Shown one piece after another: positions 1 through 19,807 of a stretch of 64,000 bases of DNA. Made by a program: the position numbers and the translations under genes. The stretch covers positions 90,929,578 to 90,993,577 of the forward strand of contig OX375879.1 of assembly GCA_947359465.1 (NCBI GenBank), in the 5' to 3' direction. The stretch is from Metellina segmentata. Its lineage: Eukaryota > Arthropoda > Arachnida > Araneae > Tetragnathidae. Position 1 is the first letter of the stretch. Each line of letters starts with the position of its first letter. The notes beneath the pieces are model-generated. The model searched no databases and was not told where the DNA came from. It saw only the letters and a program-made list of their open reading frames with translations.

Positions 1-760
1 CGCGGAGAACTTTTTCCACCCGTGTGACTTGCAGTCAGGGTTTGGAAATATGCCAAGTTTTTTTCATCCGCAAAACGCAGAGAAATTTTTTTTTTTTCAA
101 TTCCGCTTTGATTTTGCGGGGACGAATAAATTTCCAGCCATAATAGATCTTTTAAATGAAGTCAGTTTTTTCTCTATCGCCCACACCAGGGATGGGCCAA
201 CTCCGGTCCGCGGGCCAACTCCGGCCCGCCGGAAGGTTTTATCCGGCCCGTGGATAGAATTTTAATTTGCCGGTCCGACGGAAATTAAAAGAAAATATGA
301 TTTATACATTATATATCCATCTCCTTTTCTACTTTGTTTAAATATTTTTTTTTCTTCCTTTTTTTCAAAGGACTGATGATCTTTTTACTTTCTCTATTTT
401 TGTTCTACAAAGAATAAATCGACGGAAATAGCAAGCACAGACAGCTTTCAATCGGTAAAGTGTTAAAAGCGGAAGTTCTTTGTTAGTTATAGCTGTAGAC
501 TGGCGCCAGCAAGCGTTATCTCTTTCTAGGGGAGCAGACATATGGGAATCCAATATAGGTGAATTAGACCTCACATGTGGCAGATTGCGCATTTTAAGCT
601 CCAGTCAGCGGCTTTTTATTTTGGTGCGAGTTTTAATATTATTAATTGCGTATGGAAAGATTGCGGACATAAAACATCATTGTGAATAGTGGTGAAAGTA
701 TTAAAAGTATAGCGTAGCTAGTGCTTGTTTGGGTTATTCGTAAAATATTTCAACCCCAAA

Positions 761-2569
761 ATGGCTACTAAAAAACGTAAAGTTGATTCAGAGTGCCGTG
801 CTTTTAATGATGAATGGGCCTGGAAATATTTTTTTGCAGTTGTTAAAGATAAACCAGTGTGTTTCATCTGCAATAAAGCTGTAGCAGTCTTCAAAGAATA
901 TAACATTTCCCGTCTCTCTCTCTCTCTCTCATTTCACATCTTAAGCATAATAATTCCAATTACGAAGCAATGTCCGAATATGAAAGAAAACAAAATGTAG
1001 AAAGTCCTTGTAAAAAATTGTCAGGCCGACAAAATTTTTTCAAGAAGGTAAACACTATCCAAGAAGCAGCTACGCATGCAAGTTACATTGTAGCATACAA
1101 TATTGCTAAAAATAATAAAGCTCTCAGTGATGGAGAGTTCGTTAAACAATGCATGCTCCAAGTTTGTGATGTTTTATGTCCAGACAAGAAAATTAATTTT
1201 GAGACTGTGAGCTTATCTCGAAAAGCGGTGACTTCTAGAATAGGAGCCATCGATAAAAATCTGACATCACAATTAGAGTCAAAGATTGGCCAGTTTAAAT
1301 TTTGCTTAATAGCTATGGATAAAAGCACTGATATAAATGATACTGCTCAATTAGTATTATTTATAAGAGGCGTTGATAAGAACTTTGAAATTACCGAGGA
1401 ACTGGCGTGCATGCGTTCTTTGAAGGAAACTACAACACGATGTGATATTTTTCGTGAATTTCAGGAAGGGCTTTTAACTTTGAAAATGCCTATAACAAAT
1501 ATATGTAATATTACGACCGATGGAGCACCAAATATGACAGGAAAAAAATCTGGATTTCTTGGACTCTTTAATCAAAACTATCCCGGGAACAATGTTGTTT
1601 TTCTACATTGTATTATACATCAAGATGCTAAGTGTAAATCTGCATTGAATATGAAACCTGTGCTTGATGCAGTCGTGAAGCTTGTAAATACTATTCGATC
1701 TCGTGTGCTTACTCACATGCAATTTCGAGATTTTCTTCAGTCCGTGCAATCTGAATACTCTGATGTACTGTATTACACGAAAGTAAGGTGGCTTAGTGCA
1801 GGATGTGTTTTCGAGCGAGTTTGGCAGCTGAAAGACAACATTGTGTCGTTCTTCCATGAGAAACAGTGTTCTTCGGAGTGCGAAATGTTAGAAGATACAG
1901 AATGGCTTTCGGACTTTGCATTTTTCATAGATCTTCTTTGTCATATGAGCAACTTGAATGTCAAGATACAAGGGAAAATCAATTTATCGACGATATCTGG
2001 GTCCATCTTAAAGCTTTTAAACTAAAACTTAATCTGTTTGCTGGGCAGCTAGCTAAGAACTTGTCTCATTTCTCGAGGTTAAATTCAATACCCTCAGTAA
2101 ATGAAGAAAAGCTTAAGAATTATGAAGATGGCTTGAAAAAACTGCATTTTGAGTTCGAACGCAGATTTCAAGATTTCAGTGCCATTCAAACAGAATTGGA
2201 TATTTTTACCATGCCTTTCAACGTAAATTGTGAAGCAGTGAGGTCAGATTTGCAGCTTGAATTGAGTTGCAATCTAACAATCATCTCATGTAGTTGTTTC
2301 TAAATATGCCAAAGTTAGAGTTTTACAAATCATTATCGAAAGTAAGTTTCCCAAATTTAATATCTCACGCCCAGAAAATCAGTGCTATGTTTGCTTCATT
2401 TTATATATGTGAACAAGTGTTTTCAACTATGAACCTTAGAAAGAATTATTTCAGAAGTAGACTGACAGATGAGCCTTTAGCCTCGTTCCTTAGAATCAGT
2501 ACATCTCACTTCGAACCTCAATATAAGGAACTTTTAAAAATGAAATCGCAATTTCATTCATCTCAGTAA
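761..2569 (+). pseudogene. hAT transposase pseudogene (GTF2IRD2/ZBED-like family)
   Basis: The reading frame starts MATKKRKVDSE and continues with a cysteine pair (CFICNK) typical of the N-terminal finger of this hAT branch. A long open stretch (970-2025) holds the catalytic-core motifs CLIAMDKSTD and ITTDGAPNMTG. A later piece (2294-2569) holds the C-terminal hAT dimerisation region (FASFYICEQVFSTMN, then KNYFRSRLTDE). At least three frame changes split the gene: near a CT microsatellite at about 914-930, near 2000 and near 2290. The products resemble the proteins annotated in arthropods as 'general transcription factor II-I repeat domain-containing protein 2-like', which are hAT transposases. 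No full-length product can be made from this copy. Confidence 0.88.
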
Positions 2570-2589
2570 CATATTTAAATTGTGGAACT

Positions 2590-2619
2590 TGTGTGTGTGT
2601 GTATATATATATATATATT
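2590..2619. repeat. (GT)n(AT)n microsatellite
   Basis: A short run of GT dinucleotides passes directly into AT dinucleotides, inside the 3' part of the hAT element. Confidence 0.9.
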
Positions 2620-2712
2620 GTTTTTAAAATTATAGAAAAATTTATCTTGACCCGCCAAACTTTTTTTTCTTTCGATTTTTGGCCCGTGACCGAAAAAGTT
2701 TGCCCATCCCTG

Positions 2713-2990
2713 TCCTAGACCGTTAAAGTTAGAATAAAAATTTCAACGGATTTGAAATCTGCGGACGATTTCAGTTTAGATTGTTACCTAAAAATATGAT
2801 TTTCTTTAAATAAATAATTTTTAAATTGAATATATCTTCAACGGATTTGAAATCTGCGGAAAATTTTACACCAGATTAATACCTTACATCACGACGTGGG
2901 TTTGCTTCGCAAACAAACACCACGGGCACGGGCAACGACGGGTCTTTTATATTTTCGTAAGAGATTGTGACGTCGAGTTAAGCAAACAGA
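2713..2990 (+). repeat. Degenerate dispersed repeat, related in inverse orientation to 43.2-43.7 kb
   Basis: The motif acggatttgaaatctgcgg occurs twice here (about 2745 and 2840). Its reverse complement occurs at about 43490-43510, together with shared blocks such as ttctttaaataaataatttt and agagattgtgacgtc. Bases 1-186 probably form the left half of the same repeat, split by the hAT insertion. The order of shared blocks is not identical in the two places. A cgggcaacgacggg motif near 2925 recalls the 3' region of some Helitrons, but no clean terminus is visible. Confidence 0.5.
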
Positions 2991-3807
2991 TACGTAATAT
3001 AAACAGATTACCACTGGAGGAAATATATCTTATCACACAAAAGTTAGTTGATTAACATGCGAAACATCGGGAGTGGAGTAAATAGTCATAACTTTACTCG
3101 AAACCTAATGAAAAGATATTTTAAGACCTCGAAAGCCCTACGCTTAATCTTCTACTGAGCATCTGGAGACCTCTCAGGGAAATTTTCGTATTTTCATGTT
3201 AAAAATCACGTGTGTGATATATTCATAAATTATTTCGTAGTACATTGATAAAATTATTGAATATTTTGCGTCGAGCAAGTGTTAGTTACTTTTATTTCAA
3301 AGTCTTTTTTAACAATGTTTTTTTGTATCCCTAGACACTTCGTGTCTAGCCCTTGCCACACACACATAGTTTTTCATAGCTTCAAATAAATTTTTTAAAT
3401 ATCGAAATTAAAATAAAACATGAATAAAATTCAAAAATATTTGAACTAACAATTCCAAGTTGTTTGTTCAAATATTTTTTGAAAAAAAAAAAGAAAAAAA
3501 AAAAAAAAACATAATATTAAGAACTTTCAATTCAAGGATCTTGAGTATATTGTAAAAGTAATGAACACAAATTTGTTTGAGTAGTTTTTGTTATCTTTCA
3601 TTCAGGATATACAAAAAAAAAAAAAAAAAAATTACCTTGAGAGAAACATTTGAATAAAAAAGGCATGATGTTAATTTTAAATAGAGATTGAAGCCCCCGG
3701 AGAAACAATTGAAAACATTTGCGATTCGTAAATTATTCGCTACATAAAGAAATTAAGTGACGTGAAATCTGGAATATCGACATGATTCTGAATCGTTGGA
3801 GTTCCGA
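2991..3807. other. No gene seen; AT-rich with A-tracts
   Basis: No open frame or splice-bounded exon is convincing here. Two long adenine tracts, at about 3481-3509 and 3612-3630, may be old retrotransposition tails, but no source element could be recognised next to them. Confidence 0.5.
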
Positions 3808-5042
3808 GTTATACAAATATTGACGACCAGCTACAGGCTCGAGCTCAACAAGGCTGGTCCTTTGTTTATGAATTCCCCAATTCCCAATGACTATCCAATT
3901 GTATCTTAAATTCGTACACTCCCTTTGAATTAACTATATTTTCTGGCACCGCGTTCCAACTATCTATTACCCTATTAAAGTAGTAGTTTTTCCTTAAATC
4001 CCGATTAAAATGTGTCTTATTCAATTTATACCCATGGCCCCTTGTTCTGTTATCCCTATTGAAATTTAAGCCCTCTGTGTCCCCTTGTTTTACAAACTTG
4101 AAAAGCTGAATCAAATCCCCCCCCCCTTCTTTCCAGTGTATACATGTTTAGCTTACTTAAACGTTCATTATAGTCGAAATTTGCTAGCCCTTTATTATTT
4201 TTGTAGCTCTGTGCTGAACCTTTTCAATTGATTCTATGTCCTTTTTCATATATGGAGCCCAGAATTGTACAGCATATTCTAGATGTGGTCTTACAAAACC
4301 CTTATATAACGGCAAGATTATATTCTTATCCCTTGAAGTTACAGTCTTTTTAATATACCCCAATAACCTATTAGCCTTTTTACCCGCAGCTGAACATTGG
4401 TGACCCATTTTAAAATCCCTGTGAATTATCACCCCAAGATCCTTCACTGTTTCTCCCTCCTTTACCTTTACTCCCTGCAGACAGTACTCGGCTCCACTGT
4501 TCCTGTAACCCATATGCAGAACTTGCCATTTCCCTACATTAAATGACATACCTCATTTTACAGCCCATTCGGATATCTTATCAAAATCCCCTTGTAAATT
4601 TTCTGTCTGCAACTTGGTATCCACTGTCCCCCATATTTTTAATTCATCTGCAAATATACTGATTCTATTCTTGATCCCCTGACCTATATCATATATGAAA
4701 ATTATAAATAAAATTGGTCCCAAAACTGATCCCTGAGGCACCCCACTTATAACTTCTGTCCACTGTGAATAATTTCCTTTTACCTGCACTCTCTGCTTTC
4801 TACCCAATAACCAATTCTTTATCCATATTAATGTTTTCCCCTGAATCCCCAGCCTTTCCAATTTAAACAGTAATGCCTCATGAGGTACTTTATCAAAAGC
4901 CTTTTGAAAATCTATGTACATGATATCCACACTGCTCTTATCATTCAGCTCCTCAGTAATTTTTTCGTAGAACTTCAAAAGGTTTGTAGAGCAGGATCTG
5001 CCCTTCCTAAACCCATACTGATTCTCTGATAACAGTCCCCCT
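3808..5042 (-). mobile_element. 5'-truncated CR1-type non-LTR retrotransposon
   Basis: On the minus strand, reverse-transcriptase coding sequence starts abruptly at about 5042, inside the conserved block ENQYGFRKGRSC. It runs to a stop at 3866 and is followed by a short 3' UTR that ends near 3808 (around gtcgtcaatatttgtataac). The abrupt start is the usual 5' truncation of LINE copies. The C-terminal block with NRDLRKNYYFNRVIDSWN is typical of CR1/L2-like elements. Confidence 0.8.
3866..5030 (-). pseudogene. CR1-like reverse transcriptase, C-terminal part, broken
   Basis: Three frame pieces (4978-4553, 4549-4184 and 4114-3866) can be read as one RT plus its C-terminal region. Visible RT blocks are DFQKAFDKVPH, SGVPQGSVLGPILF and a catalytic block FADELK, where the usual FADDxK/YADD has lost its second aspartate. 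Later blocks are the thumb-like VKDLGVIIHRDFK and HLEYAVQFWAPY. A stop at about 4550 and a frame change near a poly-C run at about 4120 interrupt it. The missing catalytic aspartate and the breaks mean the copy is dead. The endonuclease and ORF1 are absent because of the truncation. Confidence 0.85.
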
Positions 5043-6450
5043 TCCTATTAGCCTTTATATATAAGCCTACGATAAAATGTGACTGCGTAAATTGTGATAA
5101 GAAACGGTATGAACTAGCTTCATTAAAAAATTATCCTTATAATAATAAAAACTACAAATTGTACAATTAAAAATATTTTTCTTCTGTGTCGTTGAAAATT
5201 AAATACGATAACCGTACCAAACTTATCTTTTATTTCATTTAATGGATTGTGTGTGTGTGTTAATCTGTCGTTTTTTAAGGTTTTAAAAACATTTTGTCTA
5301 TTTTTTGACTTGATAACATTTTTATGGAACACGAATTAGTTTCTCTGCTAAGATTAAAATATAACGTTCAGTAGAAGGCTCTCTTGACGCTGAATAAAAA
5401 ATTTACAAAATATAGACTTAAATTTGAATTAAAGAGAAAACGCTTCCTCTCTATTGCAAAAATTCAAATTCGAAGATAATTTTTTTTTGCCTATCTGAAT
5501 GGCCCACCCTAACGTATATGCGCGTGGTAGCTCATACATTAAAATAATACAACAACTGTGGTACTTTTATTAAGGTTATATACGTATATATCAAGATATT
5601 TTTCTCACACTTTAATTTGAATCTGTTTTATGTCACTATCTATTGACATTTTCATTGAAAATATCTGTCTTCCTTTCCTTGTAAGAAACTGCATTCTGTG
5701 TAATACCATGCATGTGTTGATCCTTTAAATGACAAAAATCCTATTCAAGGGAACTTTAATCGATTTTAAAAAGGTGTCATCTGAATACTTGAGTGGTTGC
5801 TCAATACAGCAAAATAAATAAAATCTTACATTTTCAGATGCACATTGTGTTTAAAAATTGAAGTTTTTAAAAATTTTGTTTCTGCTTAGAGAACCACATT
5901 ATTTATATTCTACATCTTCTAACCGTTTCCTTTTACATTTTTTTTACACTCCTATGTCAAAAAATATAAAAATGAAAGAAATGAATCAATAACATTAAGA
6001 GCAGCTGTAAAAATAATGGATTTTTTCAGCAATTTTTAACATTGATGCTTGTATTAAATTTCTCTTGGGGGTTGGTTGGTTTTTTGATGTAAGGGCCATG
6101 TACTTTTTGGAGTTTTGCAAAGTTAATCATCAATACTAAATATGTACAAGATTAAATTCCCCATGACTAAATAATATAGCACTTACTAACATTTTATTTT
6201 TTCTTTTCTAGCCATAACACTCGCCTTTTAATACCCAAATTCCTTTCACTACAGAGCCTCCCTCCTGGAATCCAGATTTGTTTTATTTTACCTTTACAGT
6301 ACTGTTGCTATTTGAATATAATTTTTAAATCAAGAATTTTATTCTATCTTTAGCTCTATTTCAAAAATCTTTGAATAAAACTACAAGAAATGTGCTTAAT
6401 AACTAATAACTTCACCTATGGATCTTGTTTAGCAATTTAAAATTTTATTT
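5043..6450. other. No gene seen
   Basis: Only short chance frames occur. The stretch at about 6066-6110 weakly resembles part of the SINE at 6453-6662, which is too little to call. Confidence 0.5.
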
Positions 6451-6452
6451 TA

Positions 6453-6662
6453 GTGTAGAGGGCTGGGTTTTTGTGGCACAAGGGCCAAATTTAACCATAC
6501 AGCACAAGGTGCTGGACATACAATTATCTAGTAATGGACATACACACCCAAAGACAGTTTTACTGACGTACAGGTGAGAAATACATCCAGGAAGGAATTG
6601 AACCTGCACTGACAACTTGGAGATTGATAGGGCAGTGGACTTACCCACAACCTTAGTGTTGT
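6453..6662 (-). repeat. tRNA-derived SINE, minus strand
   Basis: Read on the minus strand, a tRNA-like head carries the RNA polymerase III B-box GGTTCAATTCC (plus-strand 6594-6604), preceded by an A-box-like tgtgggtaagtcc. A body with GTCCAGCACCTTGTGCTG follows. It is a different family from the SINEs at 24-28 kb, 43.8 kb and 51.4 kb. Confidence 0.65.
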
Positions 6663-7352
6663 GGGAATAAATTATTGAAATGTAAAAAAGTACTAGCATA
6701 AAAAAAGAAAATTGAAAAATATCCAAAATATTCTCCAAAAATAAAAAGTATGTAAAAATAAATTTTAGTTGAATGGTATCTACTGAAGTAAATTTCGCCT
6801 AAGAGTTTAATAAAAATCCTGTTTCGAGTGATATGGAATGTGATAAGACATACAGTTATCCTATCCTATATCAATTCAGGGACAAACAGATGATTGGGAG
6901 TAGAAGCTGGGACATACAGGTTTTTTCAAGCAAAATAAATTCTTGAATTCTTCTTTAATATTCTTAGTACATAATGAAAATTTTTTATTTTGATAATTCG
7001 TAAAATGTGTCAAGGCATTTGGGCTCGTATTTAGGCAAAACATTGTTTTCACCTAAAAGAATCCACAATAAAGGAATTTAATGAGATACTTTAAATGTAT
7101 TTAACACATCAGCAGAACAATTTACCACAGCAAGAAAATTTTCATTTTGGTGGTTCGTACAAGGACTGCAATGGGATTGAACAAAAATCTTCAATGCCTC
7201 CAAAAAGTGAATTTCATTGAGTAGCATTTAAAAACAAGCAAACTCAATGTTATTCACCATTTAGCACAGCAAGAGAACAATACTTTTCAAAACAGAAGCT
7301 AATATGGAAAAGAAAATCTTGATGAAAATATTCCTTCAAATGAAAATATTGC
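6663..7352. other. No gene seen
   Basis: AT-rich DNA without a supported exon or a recognisable element. Confidence 0.5.
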
Positions 7353-7360
7353 TACTAAAT

Positions 7361-7495
7361 CAGGCCTCGAAATAGATTTTTTAATACAGGTGCACCTAAG
7401 TTTTTTAATTAGGTGCACAGTTATGTACAGTGGGAAAAAATTTAGGTGCAGTTATATTTTCATGTGCACTGTGCACCTGGGTATTTCGAGCCCTG
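7361..7495. mobile_element. 135-bp hAT-type MITE
   Basis: The element starts CAGGCCTCGAAATA and ends TATTTCGAGCCCTG, which are inverted repeats with one mismatch. It is flanked by a perfect 8-bp target-site duplication, tactaaat (7353-7360 and 7496-7503). It contains several copies of a tAGGTGCAC motif, probably subterminal transposase binding sites. A larger relative lies at 58678-59226. Confidence 0.93.
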
Positions 7496-7730
7496 TACTA
7501 AATGGAAGAATATTAGGTCGGCAGCATTCCTTCTATCGATGCTGATGGCTCTTCAGGACTGCTAGAATCTTACATTAGAATGTCTTAGGTGCTTCCTCAG
7601 TCGTTAAGATGAGGAAATTTCTCAGGCAATCACAATCTCCACCATAATGTTGTGCAGAAGCTAGTATAGAGATCATTGAGTAGCAAATCAAACAAATTCT
7701 TATTGCACATTTGTTTCACCAGTTACCCAA

Positions 7731-10430
7731 AAAACCACTAGTAAAACTACAGCACATAAAATGTATGCAACAGTGGGTAAGAAATAAATATTTAATAAGT
7801 GAAAACCAATTACTTAAGAATTGATTACAGGTTTCATGCAAACTTAATTTAAAATATCTTGTTATATTCTGTTAAAACATTTCTATACCAGGAGATTTCT
7901 GCTTTGGTTTAAACTGGTTAATCTAGCAAACTTCTTACATAAATAACGAAAAATTGTTACCAAAGCAGAAACCACCAGTAAAACTACAGCACATAAAATG
8001 CATGCAACAGTGGGTTAGAAATAAATATTTAATAAATGAAAACCAATTACTGAAGAATTGATTACAGGTTTCATGCAAACTTAATTTAAAATATCTTGTT
8101 ATATTCTGTTAAAACATTTCGGAGATTTCTGCTTTGGTTTAAACTGGTTAATCTAGCAAACTTCTTACATAAATAACGAAAAATTGTTACCAAAGCAGAA
8201 ACCACCAGTAAAACTACAGCACATAAAATGCATGCAACAGTGGGTAAGAAATAAATATTTAATAAGTGAAAACCAATTACTTAAGAATTGATTACAGGTT
8301 TCATGCAAACTTAATTTAAAATATCTTGTTATATTCTGTTAAAACATTTCTATACCAGGAGATTTCTGCTTTGGTTTAAACTGGTTAATCTAGCAAACTT
8401 CTTACATAAATAACGAAAAATTGTTACCAAAGCAGAAACCACCAGTAAAACTACAGCACATAAAATGCATGCAACAGTGGGTTAGAAATAAATATTTAAT
8501 AAATGAAAACCAATTACTGAAGAATTGATTACAGGTTTCATGCAAACTTAATTTAAAATATCTTGTTATATTCTGTTAAAACATTTCTATACCAGGAGAT
8601 TTCTGCTTTGGTTTAAACTGGTTAATCTAGCAAACTTCTTACATAAATAACGAAAAATTGTTACCAAAGCAGAAACCACCAGTAAAACTACAGCACATAA
8701 AATGCATGCAACAGTGGGTAAGAAATAAATATTTAATAAGTGAAAACCAATTACTTAAGAATTGATTACAGGTTTCATGCAAACTTAATTTAAAATATCT
8801 TGTTATATTCTGTTAAAACATTTCTATACCAGGAGATTTCTGCTTTGGTTTAAACTGGTTAATCTAGCAAACTTCTTACATAAATAACGAAAAATTGTTA
8901 CCAAAGCAGAAACCACCAGTAAAACTACAGCACATAAAATGCATGCAACAGTGGGTTAGAAATAAATATTTAATAAATGAAAACCAATTACTGAAGAATT
9001 GATTACAGGTTTCATGCAAACTTAATTTAAAATATCTTGTTATATTCTGTTAAAACATTTCGGAGATTTCTGCTTTGGTTTAAACTGGTTAATCTAGCAA
9101 ACTTCTTACATAAATAACGAAAAATTGTTACCAAAGCAGAAACCACCAGTAAAACTACAGCACATAAAATGCATGCAACAGTGGGTAAGAAATAAATATT
9201 TAATAAGTGAAAACCAATTACTTAAGAATTGATTACAGGTTTCATGCAAACTTAATTTAAAATATCTTGTTATATTCTGTTAAAACATTTCGGAGATTTC
9301 TGCTTTGGTTTAAACTGGTTAATCTAGCAAACTTCTTACATAAATAACGAAAAATTGTTACCAAAGCAGAAACCACCAGTAAAACTACAGCACATAAAAT
9401 GCATGCAACAGTGGGTAAGAAATAAATATTTAATAAGTGAAAACCAATTACTTAAGAATTGATTACAGGTTTCATGCAAACTTAATTTAAAATATCTTGT
9501 TATATTCTGTTAAAACATTTCTATACCAGGAGATTTCTGCTTTGGTTTAAACTGGTTAATCTAGCAAACTTCTTACATAAATAACGAAAAATTGTTACCA
9601 AAGCAGAAACCACCAGTAAAACTACAGCACATAAAATGCATGCAACAGTGGGTAAGAAATAAATATTTAATAAGTGAAAACCAATTACTTAAGAATTGAT
9701 TACAGGTTTCATGCAAACTTAATTTAAAATATCTTGTTATATTCTGTTAAAACATTTCTATACCAGGAGATTTCTGCTTTGGTTTAAACTGGTTAATCTA
9801 GCAAACTTCTTACATAAATAACGAAAAATTGTTACCAAAGCAGAAACCACCAGTAAAACTACAGCACATAAAATGCATGCAACAGTGGGTTAGAAATAAA
9901 TATTTAATAAATGAAAACCAATTACTGAAGAATTGATTACAGGTTTCATGCAAACTTAATTTAAAATATCTTGTTATATTCTGTTAAAACATTTCTATAC
10001 CAGGAGATTTCTGCTTTGGTTTAAACTGGTTAATCTAGCAAACTTCTTACATAAATAACGAAAAATTGTTACCAAAGCAGAAACCACCAGTAAAACTACA
10101 GCACATAAAATGCATGCAACAGTGGGTTAGAAATAAATATTTAATAAATGAAAACCAATTACTGAAGAATTGATTACAGGTTTCATGCAAACTTAATTTA
10201 AATTATCTTGTTATATTCTGTTAAAACATTTCTATACCAGATTTCTGCTTTGATTTAAATTGGTTAATTTTGCAAACTTCTTTACATAAATAACGAAAAA
10301 TTGTCACCAAAGCAGAAACCACCAGCAAAATTACAACATATAAAATCCATGGAACAGTGGGTTAGAAAAGCAAGCAAAATCCCAAGTATATGAAAACAAA
10401 CAACTGAAAAATTGATTACACGTTTCAAGC
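7731..10430. repeat. Satellite array, about 11 units of 230/237 bp
   Basis: The marker acataaaatg recurs at 7754, 7991, 8221, 8458, 8695, 8932, 9162, 9392, 9629, 9866 and 10103, with spacings of 237 or 230 bp. A degenerate twelfth unit lies near 10336. The 230-bp units lack 7 bp (tatacca) before ggagatttctgc. Two sequence types alternate: A has gggtaag, aataagtg and cttaag; B has gggttag, aataaatg and ctgaag. Their order is A B A B A B A A A B B. Each unit contains an inverted repeat, TTCTGCTTTGGT against ACCAAAGCAGAA, about 60 bp apart, so each could form a hairpin. No coding capacity is seen. It lies directly downstream of the large transposase gene at 10681-14442. Confidence 0.97.
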
Positions 10431-10680
10431 TAACTTAATTTCGTTTGTTAGTTTTCATAAAAAAAGCAATTAATACTAAAAATATAAACCAACTATTCAG
10501 ACTTGACATAGAAAATTTGTTACAAACCAAAAAAAAAAAATCTCGATAGAACTACTTAAAAAATTATTAAGGTTTAAGTAGATAAAATTAACTGTAACTG
10601 TATGGTTTCTCAATTATTGTTTATACACATTAATTTGGCATCTGTTTACTTTCTTGTTTGTGAAGGTATGTATACATACT

Positions 10681-13600
10681 TTATGTTCCAATAATAGTAT
10701 CATAAATAAATTGTCTAAAAATTGGTATTTGGAAATCTGAATTTAAAGATGTATTACTTACTTTTTTATAAACATAATAACAGACAAAAACACCACAATT
10801 TAAATTGTCAGTTTGCTTGACATGTGGAGGGAATGTAAATGTCCACTTATTTGAGTTAGGAAATACACTACTCAATATCGAACACCATTTAAGCAATAAA
10901 AGTGATGATGTTTTATCTATGGAGTCATTTAATGGATCATAAAACTCTATGGTACTGCTATCAATATTAACAACAATTAGAATCCAATGTTTATTGACAT
11001 TGGCTGGAATGAGCAAAATTCTATGTTTTTTTAATAGCTCAATATTTGAGTTAGTTAACTTGCCACGATTTAATATACAAGAGGAACATATTGCATTCAG
11101 TGACCCAAATGTGTTTGAATACCTAATAACATTAAAAACAAAAGCATCAATTATTGCATCATACAGCCAACCTTTGCAAAAAGCAGAAGAAGCTGATTTT
11201 AATAGTGTTTCTTCTTCTAATGAAATAAAGAGATCTAAAGACTTCAGCATGTATGTCTTTATCTCTATGTCATTAACCTTTACTTCACATGCTAAAACAT
11301 TACTTTTATCTATTATCTTAAATTTTGAAAAGTTAAAGGAATTAGTATTTAGAACATTATTTACAGTTGGTTTATTAAACGAGTACTTTGAAGGAGTCAC
11401 TGTTCCTAACAATACACAATAAATGTATTCCCGAAATTTATTTGTATCAAATGGTTCTTGAACACTAGACTCGTATATTATCTGATGGGCAAAGTAACAC
11501 ACAAACACACCACAGTTGACGAAATCTTGTTGCAGCACATGTAAAGGAAAATTAACAGTCCACACCCTATTTGAATCCACAGTTGTACAACTAAAATAAT
11601 TTTTTACATTATCTAAAATTATGCAATACCTGTCAGAAGTATCATTATTTGATGGATCGTAAAAATCAATGCATTTTTTTGCTTTATTAATAACTATCAA
11701 ACACCAATGGTTTTCTATGCAAAGAGGCAGAAAAAAAATTTTTGATGATAAAATTAACGGACTGCCAGCTGGTGTTAGATCTGTTAATGATACACTATTT
11801 ATAATTAGGCTTGTAGTAGCAGAATCAATTAAAACAAATTCTGGATTAACAGTACACAGCACATGAAGAAATGCATCAATGATAACATCAAATAACCACC
11901 CTCTGACAAAATCTTTAGACTTTAATTTTAAAGCTCTTTCCTCAATAGAATTAATAAAAGGATCCAGAGACTTTAAAGATGTTTGACACAATTTGAAGAC
12001 CCCAATGGTTTTCGTAAAAGATTCACCTATTTCATTGTTTATTTTTGTAGTAAATGCTTCATAGGAAGCCACCTTTGCCTTTTTGCATGGGGACATATTT
12101 ATAAGAGAATCGTCAACATCTTCAAAATCTAAGGACCGTTTAGTACTATCACTCTTGCAAGGTATTGCACTTTTGCGATTTTTTCTTGTTTTGAACAGAA
12201 TCTGACGTTTAATAGCCTGATTGGGAGCCACTTTTGAAGGAGGAAAAAGATTAGAACTGTTATCAGTCTTTGAGTTTATAATGCCACGGCATCCAGCAAC
12301 TAATGTTTGCAATGTTGTATATACATTGTCAAGCATGAATTCTTGAACTCGTGGATCGTGTAATTTTTGCGATAAAGAATCCCATAACTTTTGACATGCT
12401 TCTAGTTTACCAGCCTTGCAACGAGGATTGTAAAAATCTTTCTTAATAAAAGTAGACCTTAAGGGTTCTTTAAAAGGATCAGTATCTATCCTAGAAGCAT
12501 CATCAAAAAGATCACTGGTATTAAGATTAATTTTGGGATTAGTGGAATGCACTTTATGTATATGCTTACATAAATTGGAAGTATCTGGGCAGTTACAAAT
12601 ATATAAATGACAGCATAATGACATGCAAGTAATTTCAAGACATTTAAAATAGCAGTGATCAATCATGGGACACTTGGTGTTTACAAGCTTTACAGTGTAC
12701 TCTTTATGTTTCACCGATTGGGACTTCACAGACCAACTATTAGAATTGTGAAGAAACAAATCTGTGTCAGGAATTTTGCTACCTTTTTTATGTCTGGTTT
12801 CAATTTTTGGATTTTTTTCTTTTGGTGGAATGCCATTTAAAATCCTACTTTTGTACATTAAAAAGTTAGCCTTTTCAATATCAAGTAATACTTTTAACAA
12901 GGTATCTAATCTTCTATTAAATTTACGCCCAAAGTAAACAGTTTTTAACTGATTATGAAATGATTCACAATAATTATTTGTATTAACTGAAGCATGATAA
13001 TATCTCCTGTAACAAGCAGCCCACAATTCACAACGGTTAGAATATTCCCTTTTAAAATAATTTACAAATAACTCGCAATTTTCAGAACAGTTCAGTAAAT
13101 CATTAAGAAGCCTATGAAATTCTGTAAGGTTTTTTTCATTTAGCAGATTTTGTAATTTTAATTTAATTTCATTTCGTACCATTTTATCAAAAATGTAAGA
13201 ATTTAAATTCCTATTCCAGGATCTTAACACATGCCACTTGCACAGCAAATGTTTTACTTCATTTCCAAACACAGTTTGAAATGCACTAAAAGTAGTGTGG
13301 TCATCATCAGTCATGACGCAATTAACATTTAAATCAGGAATTCTACACAAAAGACTTTTAAAAAGGCAAACCATTGTTTTATATGTTAAAGAATTTGTAA
13401 TAAAATGTGCTACTGGATACCCATGACCAAATTCATCTGAGACTACCAAATTAATCAAATAAAAATCATATTGATTCGTTTTATGTGTAGAATCAATGCA
13501 TAATACTTTATTGCAAGACTTCACCATCATATCCTTTTGCTCTTTACTTTGAATCCCTAAAGCAAAAGAGGTGTCACTATTTACTAAAAGGTCTAAATCA

Positions 13601-14442
13601 GAAGGACCATACAGTGTATTTGAGCCTTGAGGTTTAAAAATTAACACCGGGTCGTACTCCTCAATTCTTAACTCCTCAACAAGAGCAGCAATGGAAATTG
13701 CATCACTCTTTGGTTGTAATGCGAGTCCATGACGAGAATAGGACTTAATTACTTTCCGTGAAAGGAACACTTCTTTTACAGGAAAAAACTCCCTGCAATC
13801 ACGATCTCCAAATTTTTCTCTAAAAACTAATTGAATTTTTTGCACAGGAATACTTAACAATAACTGTGCTTTGATAGAGTCACGTGTACTTTGCTTCAAT
13901 GGTTGAAACTTACAGTTTTTAAACTGTAGTGGATGGTTATGATTAGTGCTGTAAGAGACAGTAACCAAATCCTTTTGCTCACAAGCACATATTCTGACTG
14001 GACAGTTGAGATTAGGAATTGTACCTTTTCTATTTTTGCGATTTGTTTTCCTGGGATTTTGAAACCGAGATGATAAAAAATTAAACTGACAAGAATAATA
14101 ATGAAATGTTTTAGAGCCATACTGCTTGCCTCCTGTTGTTTTAGTAAAGGATGTAAAAGTTGCTGTTCCTTCCATCTCTAACCAATTTTGGAAACTAACC
14201 ATTGAATCAAATGAAAGTATTTGAAGAGAATCTGAATTGTGTACTTCAAACATATGTCTATTTAAATTCCCAAGGTGCTTAAATGGCTTATTACAATCTT
14301 GAAAAATACAGTAATGTATCTCCCGTTCATTATTTAAATGACATAACTGCTCATGCCCAATAAATTCTGCCTCAATCTTAAAAAACTTTCCACAAACTGA
14401 ACACTTTTTGGCCGTTAAGGTTTTCTCATGAGTACATACCAT
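10681..14442 (-). CDS. MULE-type transposase fused to two tandem Ulp1-like proteases
   Basis: The 1253-codon frame has no interruption. In order it holds: two N-terminal zinc fingers (C14/C17/H30/C35 and C45/C50/H63/H68); a WRKY/GCM1-like zinc region (about 110-172, ending NHNHP); a MULE DDE core with CIDSTHKTN (D317), VMTDDD (D379-381) and NNYCESFHNQ (E493); and a SWIM finger (C616, C618, C625, H627). The C-terminal third holds two Ulp1/C48-like cysteine-protease domains with complete catalytic sets: H912, D929, Q971, C977 and H1152, D1169, Q1210, C1216. The protein is predicted to bind and move DNA in the nucleus; the proteases would act on SUMO-like or other substrates, which is inference. 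The zinc-finger frame stays open upstream to 14505, so the true N-terminus may lie in an upstream exon or in the preceding frame. No poly(A) signal or terminal inverted repeat was identified. Confidence 0.9.
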   Translation of the reverse strand: MVCTHEKTLTAKKCSVCGKFFKIEAEFIGHEQLCHLNNEREIHYCIFQDCNKPFKHLGNLNRHMFEVHNSDSLQILSFDSMVSFQNWLEMEGTATFTSFTKTTGGKQYGSKTFHYYSCQFNFLSSRFQNPRKTNRKNRKGTIPNLNCPVRICACEQKDLVTVSYSTNHNHPLQFKNCKFQPLKQSTRDSIKAQLLLSIPVQKIQLVFREKFGDRDCREFFPVKEVFLSRKVIKSYSRHGLALQPKSDAISIAALVEELRIEEYDPVLIFKPQGSNTLYGPSDLDLLVNSDTSFALGIQSKEQKDMMVKSCNKVLCIDSTHKTNQYDFYLINLVVSDEFGHGYPVAHFITNSLTYKTMVCLFKSLLCRIPDLNVNCVMTDDDHTTFSAFQTVFGNEVKHLLCKWHVLRSWNRNLNSYIFDKMVRNEIKLKLQNLLNEKNLTEFHRLLNDLLNCSENCELFVNYFKREYSNRCELWAACYRRYYHASVNTNNYCESFHNQLKTVYFGRKFNRRLDTLLKVLLDIEKANFLMYKSRILNGIPPKEKNPKIETRHKKGSKIPDTDLFLHNSNSWSVKSQSVKHKEYTVKLVNTKCPMIDHCYFKCLEITCMSLCCHLYICNCPDTSNLCKHIHKVHSTNPKINLNTSDLFDDASRIDTDPFKEPLRSTFIKKDFYNPRCKAGKLEACQKLWDSLSQKLHDPRVQEFMLDNVYTTLQTLVAGCRGIINSKTDNSSNLFPPSKVAPNQAIKRQILFKTRKNRKSAIPCKSDSTKRSLDFEDVDDSLINMSPCKKAKVASYEAFTTKINNEIGESFTKTIGVFKLCQTSLKSLDPFINSIEERALKLKSKDFVRGWLFDVIIDAFLHVLCTVNPEFVLIDSATTSLIINSVSLTDLTPAGSPLILSSKIFFLPLCIENHWCLIVINKAKKCIDFYDPSNNDTSDRYCIILDNVKNYFSCTTVDSNRVWTVNFPLHVLQQDFVNCGVFVCYFAHQIIYESSVQEPFDTNKFREYIYCVLLGTVTPSKYSFNKPTVNNVLNTNSFNFSKFKIIDKSNVLACEVKVNDIEIKTYMLKSLDLFISLEEETLLKSASSAFCKGWLYDAIIDAFVFNVIRYSNTFGSLNAICSSCILNRGKLTNSNIELLKKHRILLIPANVNKHWILIVVNIDSSTIEFYDPLNDSIDKTSSLLLLKWCSILSSVFPNSNKWTFTFPPHVKQTDNLNCGVFVCYYVYKKVSNTSLNSDFQIPIFRQFIYDTIIGT

Positions 14443-17219
14443 TTTATGACGTTGAAGACTGTACTTATTTGAAAATATTTTAAAGCATTTCTCACATGTC
14501 TTAAATTAGAATTTGGTAAACATTTACTAGTTAATGAATTAGCAAGAGATAGGATATCGATCGATTTTGAAATAGTGAGTGGCGAGTTACATCGAAATTC
14601 TTGTGTACTGATTGAAGAAGTTAATGGGATGTCCTTAGTTTTAGGTGATACAGATGAATAGGAGGTTACACTAGACATAGTTTCCGAACCAGAATTGCTA
14701 GATAATTCAGAAACACAGATTTCTGAAATTGAACAAGCATCAGCTGAACAATGTTCTCTAGTAGAATCAGAAACTTTGGGGAGATCCTTCAGTAAACCAC
14801 TATTTTCTTGCATTTTACACTTGCTTTTATGATTAGAAAATGATTTTTTTGAACTGTAGGACTTAAAACACATCTCACATTGACGAGGATATGATATCTT
14901 AACCCTAACATTACATGTTTTAAGATGGTTTCTAAAAGTGAACTTTGACTTGTAAATTTTTTGACAACATGCACATTGTCTGGGATATAATTCCTTTTCC
15001 ACCTCAAAATGCCCAACACTACCTCCACCTGTTATACAATGCTTAATCAAACCTTCCTCCTTACATAGTTGTGCTGATAAACAATCACATACCTTTACTG
15101 CGCTAAAACATTCTATGTTACAAGAAAATGGAAGAGTGGCAACTGACTGAACAGCTGAAATATTAGTAGTAACAGGTAGAACAGTAGGAATAGAGGGTTG
15201 AAAATTTCTCATGTTAGTGTTAAGTTTGGGTAAAGGAGGAAATTCTAACAAAAAAGAGATGTCAGGAACATTAGGTTCATTAGAAGGGGTAATACTGGTA
15301 ATTGTAAGAGAAAGAAAAGGAATTGCAGCAGGTTGAAAATTACACATATTAGTGTTAGAAATAAGTTTGGGTAAAGGAGGAAATTCTAGCAAAGAAGAAA
15401 TGTCAGGAACATTAGATTTGTTAGAAGGGTTAGTAATGGTAATTATTGGAGAATGAACAGCAGGTTGAAAATTACTCATGCTAATGTTAGAAATAAGTTT
15501 AGGTAAAGGAGGAAATTCTAGCAAAGAAGAGATGTCAGGAACAATAGATTTGTTAGAAGGGTTAGTAATGGTAATTGTTGGAGAAGGAACAGGAGGAATA
15601 GCAGGTTGAAAATTACTCATGTTAGAGTTAGAATTAAGTTTAGGTAAAGGAGGAAATTCTAGCAAAGAAGAAATGTCAGGAACAATAGATTTGTTAGAAG
15701 GGTTAGTAATGGTAATTATTGGAGAATGAACAGCAGGTTGAAAATTACTCATGCTAATGTTAGAAATAAGTTTAGGTAAAGGAGGAAATTCTAGCAAAGA
15801 AGAGATGTCAGGAACAATAGATTTGTTAGAAGGGTTAGTAATGGTAATTGTTGGAGAAGGAACAGGAGGAATAGCAGGTTGAAAATTACTCATGTTAGAG
15901 TTAGAATTAAGTTTAGGTAAAGGAGGAAATTCTAGCAAAGAAGAAATGTCAGGAACAATAGATTTGTTAGAAGGGTTAGTAATGGTAATTATTGGAGAAG
16001 GAACAGCAGGTTGAAAATTACTCATGCTAGTGTTAGAAATAAGTTTAGGTAAAGGAGGAAATTCTAGCAAAGAAGAAATGTCAGGAACAATAGATTTGTT
16101 AGAAGGGTTAGTAATGGTAATTGTTGGAGAAGGAACAGCAGGTTGAAAATTACTCATGCTAGTGTTAGAAATAAGTTTAGGTAAAGGAGGAAATTCTAGC
16201 AAAGAAGAGATGTCAGGAACATTAGATTTGTTAGAAGGGTTAGTAATGGTAATTATTGGAGAAGGAACAGCAGGTTGAAAATTACTCATGCTAGTGTTAG
16301 AAATAAGTTTAGGTAAAGGAGGAAATTCTAGCAAAGAATAGATGTCAGGAATGTTAGGTTCATTAGAAGAGGTAGTAGAGGCTATTGTTGGAGGAGGAAC
16401 ATACTGAATAACTGAAATCTTAGCACTTACAGGTAGAACAGGAGGAATAACAGGTTGAAAATTACTCATGATAGTGTTAGAAATAGATTTGGGCAGAAGA
16501 GGAAATTCTAGTAATGAGCAGATGTCAGGAACATTAAAATTATTAGAAGGTACAGGTTTGAAAGGGGTCACAGAACACAGATTAGGCTTAGAAAAAGATT
16601 GAAAGTTACATTTAACTGGCATAACATCCGAAACTGCACTTACTGCAAGACTTTGCTTCTTGGTGATTGCAGCTTCCATTGCAATCAGCCCTAGTAATGT
16701 TTGTGAAAACATTTTCGCCAAATGATGATTCCCAATTCTGTTGAGATGTAATCCATCACGTCCCCAGAGGCCTTTCCATGAACCAAGAGACTGACAAAAA
16801 TAAAACGTCTCTCGGCCCAGGCAAACCTTTTCTAGTTCACGATTGACAATTGATGTCTTTTGGTTAAGGAACTCCAGTTGAGATGCCAGAGAAGAACGGG
16901 ACTCGGAATCCAGAAAAAAATTGGGACCACGTGGTATGATCCCAGAAATAACCACCTTAGCAGCAGGATACAAAACAGAAAGCTCCTGAAAAAGGCTGGT
17001 GTATTTCTGAAGAATTTCAGAAACATCACCAGCAAGGTTATTAGTCCCTACATGAAAAAGCATCCATTCATAATTACCTAAACTACCAAGTTTTCTTGAT
17101 ATCCTTTCTATCTTCGCACCTGGAAAAGAAATGAGATCAACTTCATGATCCTGCAATTCGGTAGTTAAGTATTCGTTCAAATACTTAACCATTGAATCGC
17201 CGATTATTAGAAGTCTCAT
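14415..17219 (-). CDS. SGNH/GDSL hydrolase, coding minisatellite and C2H2-finger protein
   Basis: The frame is open from 17285. I place the start at the second methionine (MRLLIIGDSM, 17219), because the SGNH fold begins there. Counted from this Met, catalytic blocks are GDS (7-9), HVGTNN (56-61) and DGLH (155-158), so serine, aspartate and histidine are all present. After about 200 residues comes a proline/serine-rich repeat region with about ten copies of a 44- or 47-residue unit containing SLLEFPPLPKL. Two C2H2-like fingers follow (CACCQK..H, CEMCFKSYSSKKSFSNH). SGNH domains occur as esterases in transposon proteins such as CR1 ORF1; the substrate here is unknown. The frame overlaps the downstream transposase gene by 28 bp, and its last codons are probably not the natural end. 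At about 14500 the minus-1 frame encodes a further finger that leads straight into the transposase. An intron, a frameshift or a mutation could link them. Confidence 0.8.
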   Translation of the reverse strand: MRLLIIGDSMVKYLNEYLTTELQDHEVDLISFPGAKIERISRKLGSLGNYEWMLFHVGTNNLAGDVSEILQKYTSLFQELSVLYPAAKVVISGIIPRGPNFFLDSESRSSLASQLEFLNQKTSIVNRELEKVCLGRETFYFCQSLGSWKGLWGRDGLHLNRIGNHHLAKMFSQTLLGLIAMEAAITKKQSLAVSAVSDVMPVKCNFQSFSKPNLCSVTPFKPVPSNNFNVPDICSLLEFPLLPKSISNTIMSNFQPVIPPVLPVSAKISVIQYVPPPTIASTTSSNEPNIPDIYSLLEFPPLPKLISNTSMSNFQPAVPSPIITITNPSNKSNVPDISSLLEFPPLPKLISNTSMSNFQPAVPSPTITITNPSNKSIVPDISSLLEFPPLPKLISNTSMSNFQPAVPSPIITITNPSNKSIVPDISSLLEFPPLPKLNSNSNMSNFQPAIPPVPSPTITITNPSNKSIVPDISSLLEFPPLPKLISNISMSNFQPAVHSPIITITNPSNKSIVPDISSLLEFPPLPKLNSNSNMSNFQPAIPPVPSPTITITNPSNKSIVPDISSLLEFPPLPKLISNISMSNFQPAVHSPIITITNPSNKSNVPDISSLLEFPPLPKLISNTNMCNFQPAAIPFLSLTITSITPSNEPNVPDISFLLEFPPLPKLNTNMRNFQPSIPTVLPVTTNISAVQSVATLPFSCNIECFSAVKVCDCLSAQLCKEEGLIKHCITGGGSVGHFEVEKELYPRQCACCQKIYKSKFTFRNHLKTCNVRVKISYPRQCEMCFKSYSSKKSFSNHKSKCKMQENSGLLKDLPKVSDSTREHCSADACSISEICVSELSSNSGSETMSSVTSYSSVSPKTKDIPLTSSISTQEFRCNSPLTISKSIDILSLANSLTSKCLPNSNLRHVRNALKYFQISTVFNVIKWYVLMRKP
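15230..16340 (-). repeat. In-frame coding minisatellite, 132/141-bp units
   Basis: The motif taaaggagga recurs at about 15231, 15372, 15504, 15645, 15777, 15918, 16050, 16182 and 16314. Spacings are 132 or 141 bp, both multiples of three, so the frame is kept. Units differ by an insertion encoding three residues in some copies. A more diverged unit lies near 16500. The near-identity of neighbouring units points to recent expansion or gene conversion. Confidence 0.95.
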
Positions 17220-17399
17220 TATTAACACTGAGATACGGTGATCAACAAATGTGAACAAACACAGAATAAAATGCAAATCAAACAAAATGCAAGTTTATGA
17301 TAATGAATGGATAAAATATATAATATTTGAGAGCAAGCACAAAAATAAGCAATCCAAAGATTCGCGTCCGCCAAATTGATTTCACAAACAATAAACAAT

Positions 17400-17640
17400 T
17401 GTAAAGCGCGGCAATTTGAGTTAAGCGTCTCCCGGATATGAGTCACTTCACTAGAACCTCAGTAAAACGCCAAAGAGAGAATGCCAATTTTCGTAACCAA
17501 TCAGAGTGAATCAACTCCGTTGTAACCCAGTGATAGCGTGAACACTCGCCGGTCCACATTATGACGTCACACATTCTATCTTTCCCCAAAGTTTTACTAG
17601 GATGTGTAAGTCCCCAAGCACAACGGAGTTTCTCCCGATG
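17400..17640 (-). promoter_or_regulatory. Probable promoter of the SGNH/MULE gene pair
   Basis: This stretch is richer in CpG than its surroundings. It contains a CCAAT box (17497-17501) and a perfect cyclic-AMP response element palindrome TGACGTCA (17562-17569). An 11-bp inverted repeat, AACTCCGTTGT (about 17514-17524) against ACAACGGAGTT (about 17620-17630), brackets that element. It lies just upstream of the SGNH frame and ends where homology between the two PGRP locus copies begins (about 17645). It therefore probably also contains the right end of the inserted element. Confidence 0.4.
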
Positions 17641-17864
17641 TCGGATTAGGTTTCATTTCTAAATGTAATACTGGATTGAAAGTTAATTTTTGTTGTGGTG
17701 GCTCAGTTCTCCACAGTGTCAAAGAAAAAGGTTAATGTCAAATTACCTTGACAGTGACAAAAATAAGAAGAGTTTTGATTACTACAGAATAGTACCTCAC
17801 TCTTTTAAAATAGAATAACTCTAATCAGACAATGGCATTTTAATATCCTACCTTTGTTAATTAG

Positions 17865-18047
17865 GTCCAGGTGTTGAAATAGTTTCCCGTTCTGGATGGG
17901 GTGCTCGTCGAGAAACTATTATACGAGTAATGAACAAGCCAGTCAATCATGTAATTATTGGCCATACTGTGACCCCGGAGTGCCATAATTTCCAAGATTG
18001 TACAGCAACAATGCGAAGCATACAGAATTTGCACATGAATTATCCTG
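17865..18047 (+). CDS. Peptidoglycan recognition protein, domain exon 1
   Basis: The exon follows the acceptor cctttgttaattag and ends before gtagtg, in phase 1 at both ends. It encodes the N-terminal third of a PGRP domain: EIVSRSGWGARRE, then HVIIGHTVTPECHNFQDC, then MRSIQNLHMNY. PGRPs bind bacterial peptidoglycan in haemolymph, at membranes or in the gut and trigger or damp innate immunity. In amidase PGRPs the first histidine of the HHT motif ligates zinc; here the motif reads GHT, so this ligand is lost. The exon with the signal peptide and start codon was not found upstream; it may lie beyond the 10.7-17.6 kb insertion or outside the window. Confidence 0.88.
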
Positions 18048-18814
18048 GTAGTGTATTGTTATTACTACAATCGTCTGGTTTTTTCTAAAATGATATAAAA
18101 GTGGCTTATTTTATTTTATCTATATTATCTATCGTACCTTATTTTATCTATATCTTATATAAATAATCTATCTCTATAATTATATTTCATTCGTATACTT
18201 TTATAGTTATCTTCATAATGTAAAACAATTAAGAATATTATTAACATTAATAATTAATTAATATTAATTGCTTAAGTAACTCTAAGTTATTAAACCAAAG
18301 TAGACATTTAAAGATTTCTACTTTTCTCATGAAATTGTGTAGCTGTCATTTTTCTTCAGAAGTTAAGATAAAGATAAGTTAGCCGAAAATGTTAATTCTC
18401 CTGATACTGTCACCCTTGATACATGTCCCCAATCGTTAGAAATGGCTAATTGGAGTTTTGCTTTGCGGAGTTTTTCTTCTGATCATTGACGTTTTCTTTG
18501 AGGCTATTCATCACGTCAAAGTTCAGATCTTAGATTGACGATGGCAATTTAACAGCGTAGCAGATAAAAAAGTTTTCAAATGCTGCATAAAATTGGATCA
18601 TACATTTTCAGGCTGAACAGTTTACCCATTTGCGTCGGACAGTTTTATTATAACACATGAGTATAAGTTCACTTATTTTGAAGAAGTTTATTCAAACGGC
18701 GGGACATAAAATATCGATAAAAATGAACAGTAACATTTCCATTAACAGGTTAAATTTATCAAATACAAAACAAACAGTGAGCTACTCTAAAATACACGTA
18801 ACGAGAACTGCATT

Positions 18815-19440: not shown

Positions 19441-19601
19441 ATTTCCTACTTGATTTCCACTATCTTGATGGCTTTAAATAGCAACTTATCTGCTTTAAAT
19501 GTATATAAAGGAAGCTAAAATATTTGCTATCGTTGTAAAACAAACGCTTTTTTAGGTAATGTTTTAAACAATTCGCTAATATAATAAACACGTCCATACA
19601 G

Positions 19602-19807
19602 AATGGGGAGACATAGGCTATACATTTGTCATTGGAGGTGATGGTCGAGCGTACGAAGGTGTAGGATGGGATCGTGAGGGTATACACACCCTTGGATGGA
19701 ACTCGAAGTCCTACGGCATCGCTTTCGTTGGGAACTTCATGGACAAGGCGCCAAACAACGCTATGCTGAAGGCAGCTCGATCTTTAATTGTGTGTGGAAT
19801 ACGAACA
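19602..19807 (+). CDS. Peptidoglycan recognition protein, domain exon 2
   Basis: The exon follows acceptor ccatacag and ends at gtaaga, entering in phase 1 and leaving in phase 0. It encodes the PGRP core WGDIGYTFVIGGDGRAYEG, then GWDREGIHTLGWNSKSYGIA, then VGNF, and ends LIVCGIRT. These blocks are the standard PGRP core, including the tyrosine of DIGY. The phases match those of the first and third exons, which supports one spliced gene with an approximately 174-residue domain. The second copy of this exon (40420-41548) is destroyed. Confidence 0.9.

Follow-up and report, generated by a model that had tools for sequence, protein, structure and literature searches.

A cut-and-paste transposon is usually small and has hardly anything besides its transposase. 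Among arthropods, MULEs of the Phantom, Spectre, Ghost and other clades combine a MULE DDE core with zinc fingers and target duplications of 8–11 bp (PMC6446971, PMC13359780; these and the papers below are cited for the passages bearing on the elements named), and in a survey of 4,268 genomes the elements measured 1.4–10.0 kb, with frames of 313–1,136 aa (PMC13359780). Since flanks of 5 kb were taken around each match in that survey, elements of the length reported here could not be delimited there. The main text of PMC13359780 mentions no Ulp1, protease, esterase or SGNH, and that of PMC6446971 no protease, lipase or esterase. MULEs without long terminal inverted repeats (TIRs) are known, and aphid Phantom elements carry, as here, a minisatellite after the transposase frame (PMC6446971). 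Rehavkus, of which Rehavkus-1_TC measures 9.5 kb, resembles the present element in its arthropod hosts, its 9-bp duplication and a minisatellite near the end (PMC6446971, PMC10218199); going by its description, it differs in having a PHD finger, for which neither the open reading frames of the window nor the intact 2,135-aa protein gave a match. Ulp1 domains are carried by the plant Kaonashi (KI/KIU) MULEs, a parallel drawn in the initial annotation that holds for the presence of Ulp1 on a MULE. It fails for orientation in Arabidopsis, where KI-MULEs are non-TIR elements whose one Ulp1 runs opposite to the transposase; in some grapevine MULE families, by contrast, a Ulp1-like region is oriented as the transposase (PMC2528002). 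Here there are two Ulp1 domains, in the transposase frame and together with an SGNH domain.

The window analysed here is a stretch of 64,000 nucleotides from the spider Metellina segmentata. In our reading (with a probability of roughly 0.85) the locus is part of a very large DNA transposon of the cut-and-paste type, a member of the Mutator superfamily, whose single polyprotein joins an SGNH hydrolase, a repeat linker, C2H2 fingers, a DDE transposase with SWIM finger, and tandem Ulp1 cysteine proteases. What is seen directly are defined ends, duplications of 9–10 bp (inside the MULE range), dispersed near-identical copies, whole frames that are open, and the same fused order in other arthropods. 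Compared with the MULEs of the arthropod survey, the elements are 15–26 kb long, code for up to 2,135 aa, and add SGNH and two Ulp1 domains; at more than 20 kb they are about twice the longest arthropod MULE among the 4,268 genomes (PMC13359780). A search of literature titles and abstracts (subscription papers and Repbase reports were outside its scope) found no MULE with an SGNH domain and no animal MULE with Ulp1, in keeping with the suggestion that the full domain set is undescribed. The features of the element, up to the end of its coding frame, are as follows.

17615..17624, strand not assigned: 10-bp target site duplication, its partner beyond the left window edge (flank comparison)
1..17614, minus strand: transposon copy of 23,334 bp in all, of which 5,719 bp lie past the left window edge (ends common to copies with different flanks; duplications on both sides)
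17588..17604, minus strand: element positions 11–27, the best-conserved part of the 5' terminal inverted repeat (in register, 15 of 17 bases agree with the 3' end)
14415..17219, minus strand: ORF1, first part of the coding frame (frame reading)
10681..14505, minus strand: ORF2, second part of the coding frame, stop to stop (frame reading)
16680..17219, minus strand: SGNH hydrolase domain (profile and structure matches; GDS 17190–17201, FPG 17115–17126, GTNN 17037–17048, DGLH 16743–16760)
15221..16401, minus strand: repeat linker, 132/141-bp units, nine LLEFPPLPKL motifs (repeat analysis; not under constraint)
15021..15032, minus strand: TGGG motif, proposed site of Ulp1 cleavage (comparison of relatives)
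14239..14975, minus strand: five C2H2/C2HC fingers, two ending ORF1 and three starting ORF2, across the frame break (Pfam and pattern)
12955..13500, minus strand: MULE DDE core (Pfam and residues; D 13483–13500, D 13300–13314, CxxH 13231–13242, E 12955–12972)
12562..12597, minus strand: SWIM finger (pattern only)
11416..12000, minus strand: first Ulp1 domain, limits approximate (H 11698–11709, D 11653–11664, Q/C 11509–11532)
10684..11226, minus strand: second Ulp1 domain, limits approximate (H 10978–10989, D 10933–10944, Q/C 10792–10815)

Both long frames and every domain named in the initial annotation were found on the minus strand, and all of them – SGNH, C2H2, MULE, SWIM (as a pattern) and two complete Ulp1 domains – lie on the transposon, as judged by Pfam, fold and residues. 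The MULE profile matches at 1.2e-13, above the cut-off, and the D, D, CxxH and E of the transposase are invariant across the aligned rows. Pfam recognizes two separate C48 stretches. The catalytic residues are indeed kept, as had been reported, in the hydrolase (GDS, FPG, GTNN, DGLH) and in both proteases (H, D, Q and C in each); the catalytic positions of SGNH, transposase, SWIM and both Ulp1 domains were assigned by motifs that we take to be those of the respective families. The second Ulp1 domain, the only part for which the tandem-Ulp1 model is confident (residues 1–221 of 439 fall below pLDDT 50), matches Ulp1 and SENPs in fold, among SUMO and NEDD8 proteases. The SGNH fold is predicted with confidence and, with the Ser, Gly, Asn and His blocks present, the domain belongs to the SGNH hydrolase superfamily. 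Evidence on a descent of the domain from a LINE is divided: the best phmmer match among solved structures is 4c1b (ZfL2-1 ORF1p, 1.1e-6), but PAF acetylhydrolases rank first by fold, and 4c1b is absent from the best 50 fold matches. Two further observations concern the protein. The linker (window 15222–16334, nine LLEFPPLPKL motifs) has a counterpart in EFPALP of Araneus linkers, possibly a short binding motif; and ORF2 matches, besides MULE, PF21056 (the ZSWIM1/3 RNaseH-like domain); those host genes may have arisen from a source near this group of elements.

The two frames had been described as a gene pair, and here the initial annotation has to be revised. In five of the seven other family-A copies that were fetched the frame is single and uninterrupted (2160, 2159, 2152, 2117 and 2067 codons, stop to stop), and in two it is broken; the largest intact protein has 2,135 aa, in the order SGNH esterase, repeat linker, C2H2 fingers, MULE transposase, SWIM, Ulp1, Ulp1. 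The window copy, the eighth of family A, has a frame break of one base near 14,500, within the finger array, at which all five intact copies show a single-base gap relative to the window. ORF1 and ORF2 are one reading frame, broken in this copy; the break may be an assembly error. A -1 frameshift or an intron at the overlap of ORF1 and ORF2 was considered and dropped, the frame being single in other copies. Over the 3.8-kb second frame, identity to the window is 99.2–99.9% in six of the seven copies and 95.3% in the seventh. Recent activity of the element is likely, because six copies are this similar to the window and five are intact.

A search of the spider's own genome (1.665 Gb) with the coding part gave at least 41 matches – a lower bound, since only the best candidates are scored. 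These include two further families whose layout is common with family A. Family B is about 63% identical, and the three copies fetched have frames of 1,999 codons (including a start), 1,791 and 1,752 codons. Family C is about 48% identical, and five copies are listed with a 1,613-codon frame; in the one copy fetched (L035) 2.5 kb separate the SGNH frame from the rest of the coding sequence downstream (frames at 136–840 and 3385–8223), a gap that may be an intron, an insertion or decay.

Selection for transposition carries a prediction: the enzymes should be constrained and the linker should not. Ratios of dN/dS were obtained by Nei-Gojobori counting between and within families. Between families A and B they are 0.13 for MULE, 0.19 for the first and 0.24 for the second Ulp1, 0.29 for SGNH, 0.37 for the fingers and 1.14 for the linker, values that are rough, dS ranging from 0.56 to 1.70 (for SWIM, synonymous sites are saturated and no ratio could be computed). 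Between A and C six parts give 0.13–0.36, and within B the ratio is 0.82 in the linker part and 0.21–0.24 elsewhere. On these ratios purifying selection acts on the esterase, on the transposase and on both proteases but spares the linker: three kinds of enzyme are kept in one frame. The initial annotation had attributed the preserved catalytic residues to recent activity or host selection and had proposed dN/dS between copies as a check. The enzyme domains bear the constraint out (0.13–0.29, A vs B), and recent activity agrees with the similar and intact copies; host selection is not needed, because constraint between element families is what transposition predicts. As a separate observation, dS between A and B is 0.56 in SGNH (window 16680–17219) vs 1.30–1.70 in the transposase and Ulp1 domains, which could reflect gene conversion or recombination at the 5' end, or some other constraint.

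The ends of the element were defined by comparison of copies. At the 5' end (window 17614) the window copy and six others share the same starting bases while their flanks differ. Perfect duplications of 9–10 bp surround seven of the nine copies whose flanks were examined: 10 bp in the window copy and C12a, and 9 bp in C31, C3, C2, C13:78.75 and C12:108 (the last with one changed base at the element start, its duplication being read from the flanks). In C12b the duplication matches at seven of nine positions, and C5 shows none. The core of the inverted repeat (element positions 11–27, 15 of 17 in register) was equalled by 0 of 20,000 random stretches; over its whole length the repeat is weak (19 of 40 positions, a value reached by 92 of 20,000 controls). 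Ten of the first 12 bases are identical between families A and B, a comparison made at the 5' end, the family B sequence stopping short of its 3' end. The predicted location of the 5' end (17.3–17.7 kb) was thus right, and that of the 3' end (7–10.6 kb) was not: it lies 5.7 kb past the left window edge, and because it lies outside, no useful terminal repeats are found within the window.

Searching the genome with each end gave 27 5' matches at 26 places and 28 3' matches. Each 5' end was then joined to the closest same-strand 3' end no more than 40 kb away, which yielded 19 two-ended copies of 4.9–26.2 kb. Fifteen of these hold a coding match (out of the 20 family-A-like matches, among the at least 41 in the genome, that were used in the pairing) and span 15.4–26.2 kb, with a median of 21.5 kb; none of the 15 is shorter than 15.4 kb. 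One of the four two-ended copies without a listed coding match measures 16.3 kb and has a 9-bp duplication, which suggests either movement in trans or later loss of the gene.

Behind the frame the element continues in a long tail, with these features:

7732..10368, strand not assigned: 237-bp minisatellite, 11.2 units, directly behind the frame (repeat analysis)
3869..5044, minus strand: broken LINE inside the element (RVT_1 1.4e-23 in 4556–5044)
722..2566, plus strand: broken hAT-like transposon inside the element (Dimer_Tnp_hAT 3.7e-5 in 2294–2566; the frame at 904–2022 has no Pfam match and was called hAT by reading)

After the minisatellite the tail extends over 7.7 kb in the window and 5.7 kb outside it. 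The same stretch is present in copies C12a and C31 at 98.7–99.8% identity; the dead LINE and hAT pieces therefore ride inside the element. They had been taken for surrounding broken transposons: broken they are, but they are part of the element, in two other copies as well. In the first 5.5 kb behind the frame, family B has only pieces of 48–216 bases in common with the window, and apart from the reverse transcriptase and hAT remnants there are no other long frames inside the element.

Such a tail could be a passenger, the unit being a smaller transposon stuck in a larger one; its broken LINE, hAT pieces and minisatellite, and its divergence, over the part compared, between families A and B, are what one would then expect. 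The duplications, however, flank the 5' start and the far 3' end together in seven copies, so the whole unit moves, and we consider a compound unit improbable. Conservation of all enzyme domains might equally mark a host gene derived from a MULE by domestication, but the many near-identical dispersed copies with target duplications make that very improbable. The size of about 20 kb, and a protease that presumably belongs to the adenain clan, recall Polinton/Maverick-like or virus-derived elements. Polintons have a 6-bp duplication together with polymerase and capsid genes; here the duplications are 9–10 bp, the transposase is that of a MULE, no long frame exists besides the two remnants, and a scan of IMG/VR with a four-protein alignment gave 51 pattern matches of which none was confirmed, which leaves an origin of this kind scarcely credible.

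Three protein searches returned 12 distinct relatives, and five of the six relatives from the first search come from the orb-weavers Araneus ventricosus and Argiope bruennichi. SGNH, MULE and Ulp1 occur in one protein in three of the 12 (P0003 and P0010 of the damselfly Ischnura elegans, P0008 of the mealybug Planococcus citri). Another Ischnura protein (P0009) lacks MULE but has SGNH and Ulp1; Araneus P0002 combines SGNH with MULE and ends before Ulp1; and in thrips P0012 (Frankliniella) MULE, Ulp1 and PHD are present and SGNH is absent, its gene model possibly being cut. A second Ulp1 domain was seen in the spider-like families alone, the damselfly and mealybug proteins having a single one. 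In the transposase tree (13 rows, without P0004 and P0009) spider, damselfly and mealybug form one group (100/100), and thrips, whitefly and a metagenome sequence a separate one (100/100). The SGNH tree (9 rows, long branches) sets Planococcus and Ischnura apart from the spider rows. In the Ulp1 tree (10 rows, long branches) the a-group (93/92) and the b-group (99/99) each hold families A, B and C, and the tandem duplication is therefore probably older than the three families. As an aside, P0012 and the metagenome protein P0011 are MULE proteins whose C-terminus carries a PHD finger, and P0012 has Ulp1 as well; both are perhaps Rehavkus-like, which would tie Ulp1 to that group.

Comparison of the relatives draws attention to the end of the linker, where all 11 proteins with a clear linker and fingers have Gly-Gly 8–18 residues before the first finger (P0011 and P0012, having no matching finger, were outside the count). 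In the families of this genome the context is TGGG, and among four extra copies fetched to test the motif it was present in the three that could be read (L044, L045 and L047, the last close to family B), L046 being too decayed. In the ten aligned rows GG is always followed by G or S; the automatic alignment of these rows gave one strictly invariant Gly column, the damselfly rows being shifted by one. Gly-Gly is otherwise sparse: the intact 2,135-aa protein has it at TGGG and once more, at residue 986; family B has one further instance, inside SGNH, P0001 and P0005 one each, and P0010 two; the family C frame, P0002, P0004, P0006, P0003 and P0009 have none besides that before the fingers. Bemisia P0013, with fingers and without SGNH, has no Gly-Gly. 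When each linker was shuffled 5,000 times, six proteins had a Gly-Gly among the last 60 residues in between 25 and 640 of the trials, frequencies that are not to be multiplied, the rows being related to one another; the mealybug linker is Gly-rich and uninformative (4,018 of 5,000).

SUMO tails end in TGG, and adenain-type proteases, which belong to the Ulp1 clan, cut viral polyproteins after Gly-Gly. By analogy, the Gly-Gly at the linker end resembles a cut site of Ulp1/adenain type, hence the proposal that the Ulp1 domains cut here. One or both would then process the polyprotein after the Gly-Gly, a reading that we advance tentatively. Equally tentative is the wider picture of a transposon built like a polyprotein virus, with all enzymes in one chain and Ulp1 cutting after a SUMO-tail-like TGG, an arrangement kept in spiders, damselflies and perhaps mealybugs; the viral proteases act in viruses, and the setting here would be a cut-and-paste transposon. 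The same transposon might instead use Ulp1 on SUMO- or ubiquitin-like conjugates of the host, to loosen silencing or to regulate the transposase, in which case the Gly-Gly is no cut site. For this we see a chance not far below even. By fold the second Ulp1 domain falls with SUMO and NEDD8 proteases, another MULE with Ulp1 lacks SGNH in its gene model (P0012), and in plants the Vandal KIU proteins (Ulp1-carrying VANC) are tied to hypomethylation of related elements (PMC13317346). Action on host conjugates leaves unexplained, however, why Gly-Gly is kept at one place in an unconstrained, Gly-poor linker. Why transposons carry Ulp1 is left open in the same plant review, in the passages on these elements (PMC13317346), and the present element offers a testable answer: self-processing or control of host SUMO.

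If the polyprotein is processed by its own Ulp1 domains, the cut would separate a transposase-protease part from a protein made of SGNH and linker, which can be compared with the esterase that some LINEs encode as their ORF1 protein. Going by what is known of the family, the DDE core is expected to excise and insert the element, and the fingers and SWIM to bind its ends. Least certain is what the esterase does; if LINE ORF1p is a guide, its targets may be membranes or lipids. The ORF1 esterase of L2/CR1 LINEs (ZfL2-1 ORF1p) has the same catalytic S, G, N, D and H as the SGNH domain here, with the difference that it is a separate ORF1 protein of a retrotransposon and the SGNH domain is part of a DNA-transposon polyprotein; it hydrolyses esters and binds membranes (PMC3905857), activities that provide the best hint to the SGNH role. 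GDSL esterases are named as accessory functions in giant rotifer retroelements (PMC6431247). The same type of esterase occurs in a DNA transposon and in LINE ORF1 proteins.

Outside the element, two plus-strand stretches (window 17861–18088 and 19580–19825) appear to be exons of a peptidoglycan-recognition-like gene; the second matches Amidase_2 (3.7e-12), and the first, which has no Pfam match, was named by reading. A plus-strand frame at 24606–25274 has PRE_C2HC (3.1e-4) and zf-CCHC (0.0023) matches, both below the cut-off, and is perhaps a LINE gag-like ORF. The element lies about 250 bp upstream of the first peptidoglycan-recognition-like exon, in the opposite orientation.
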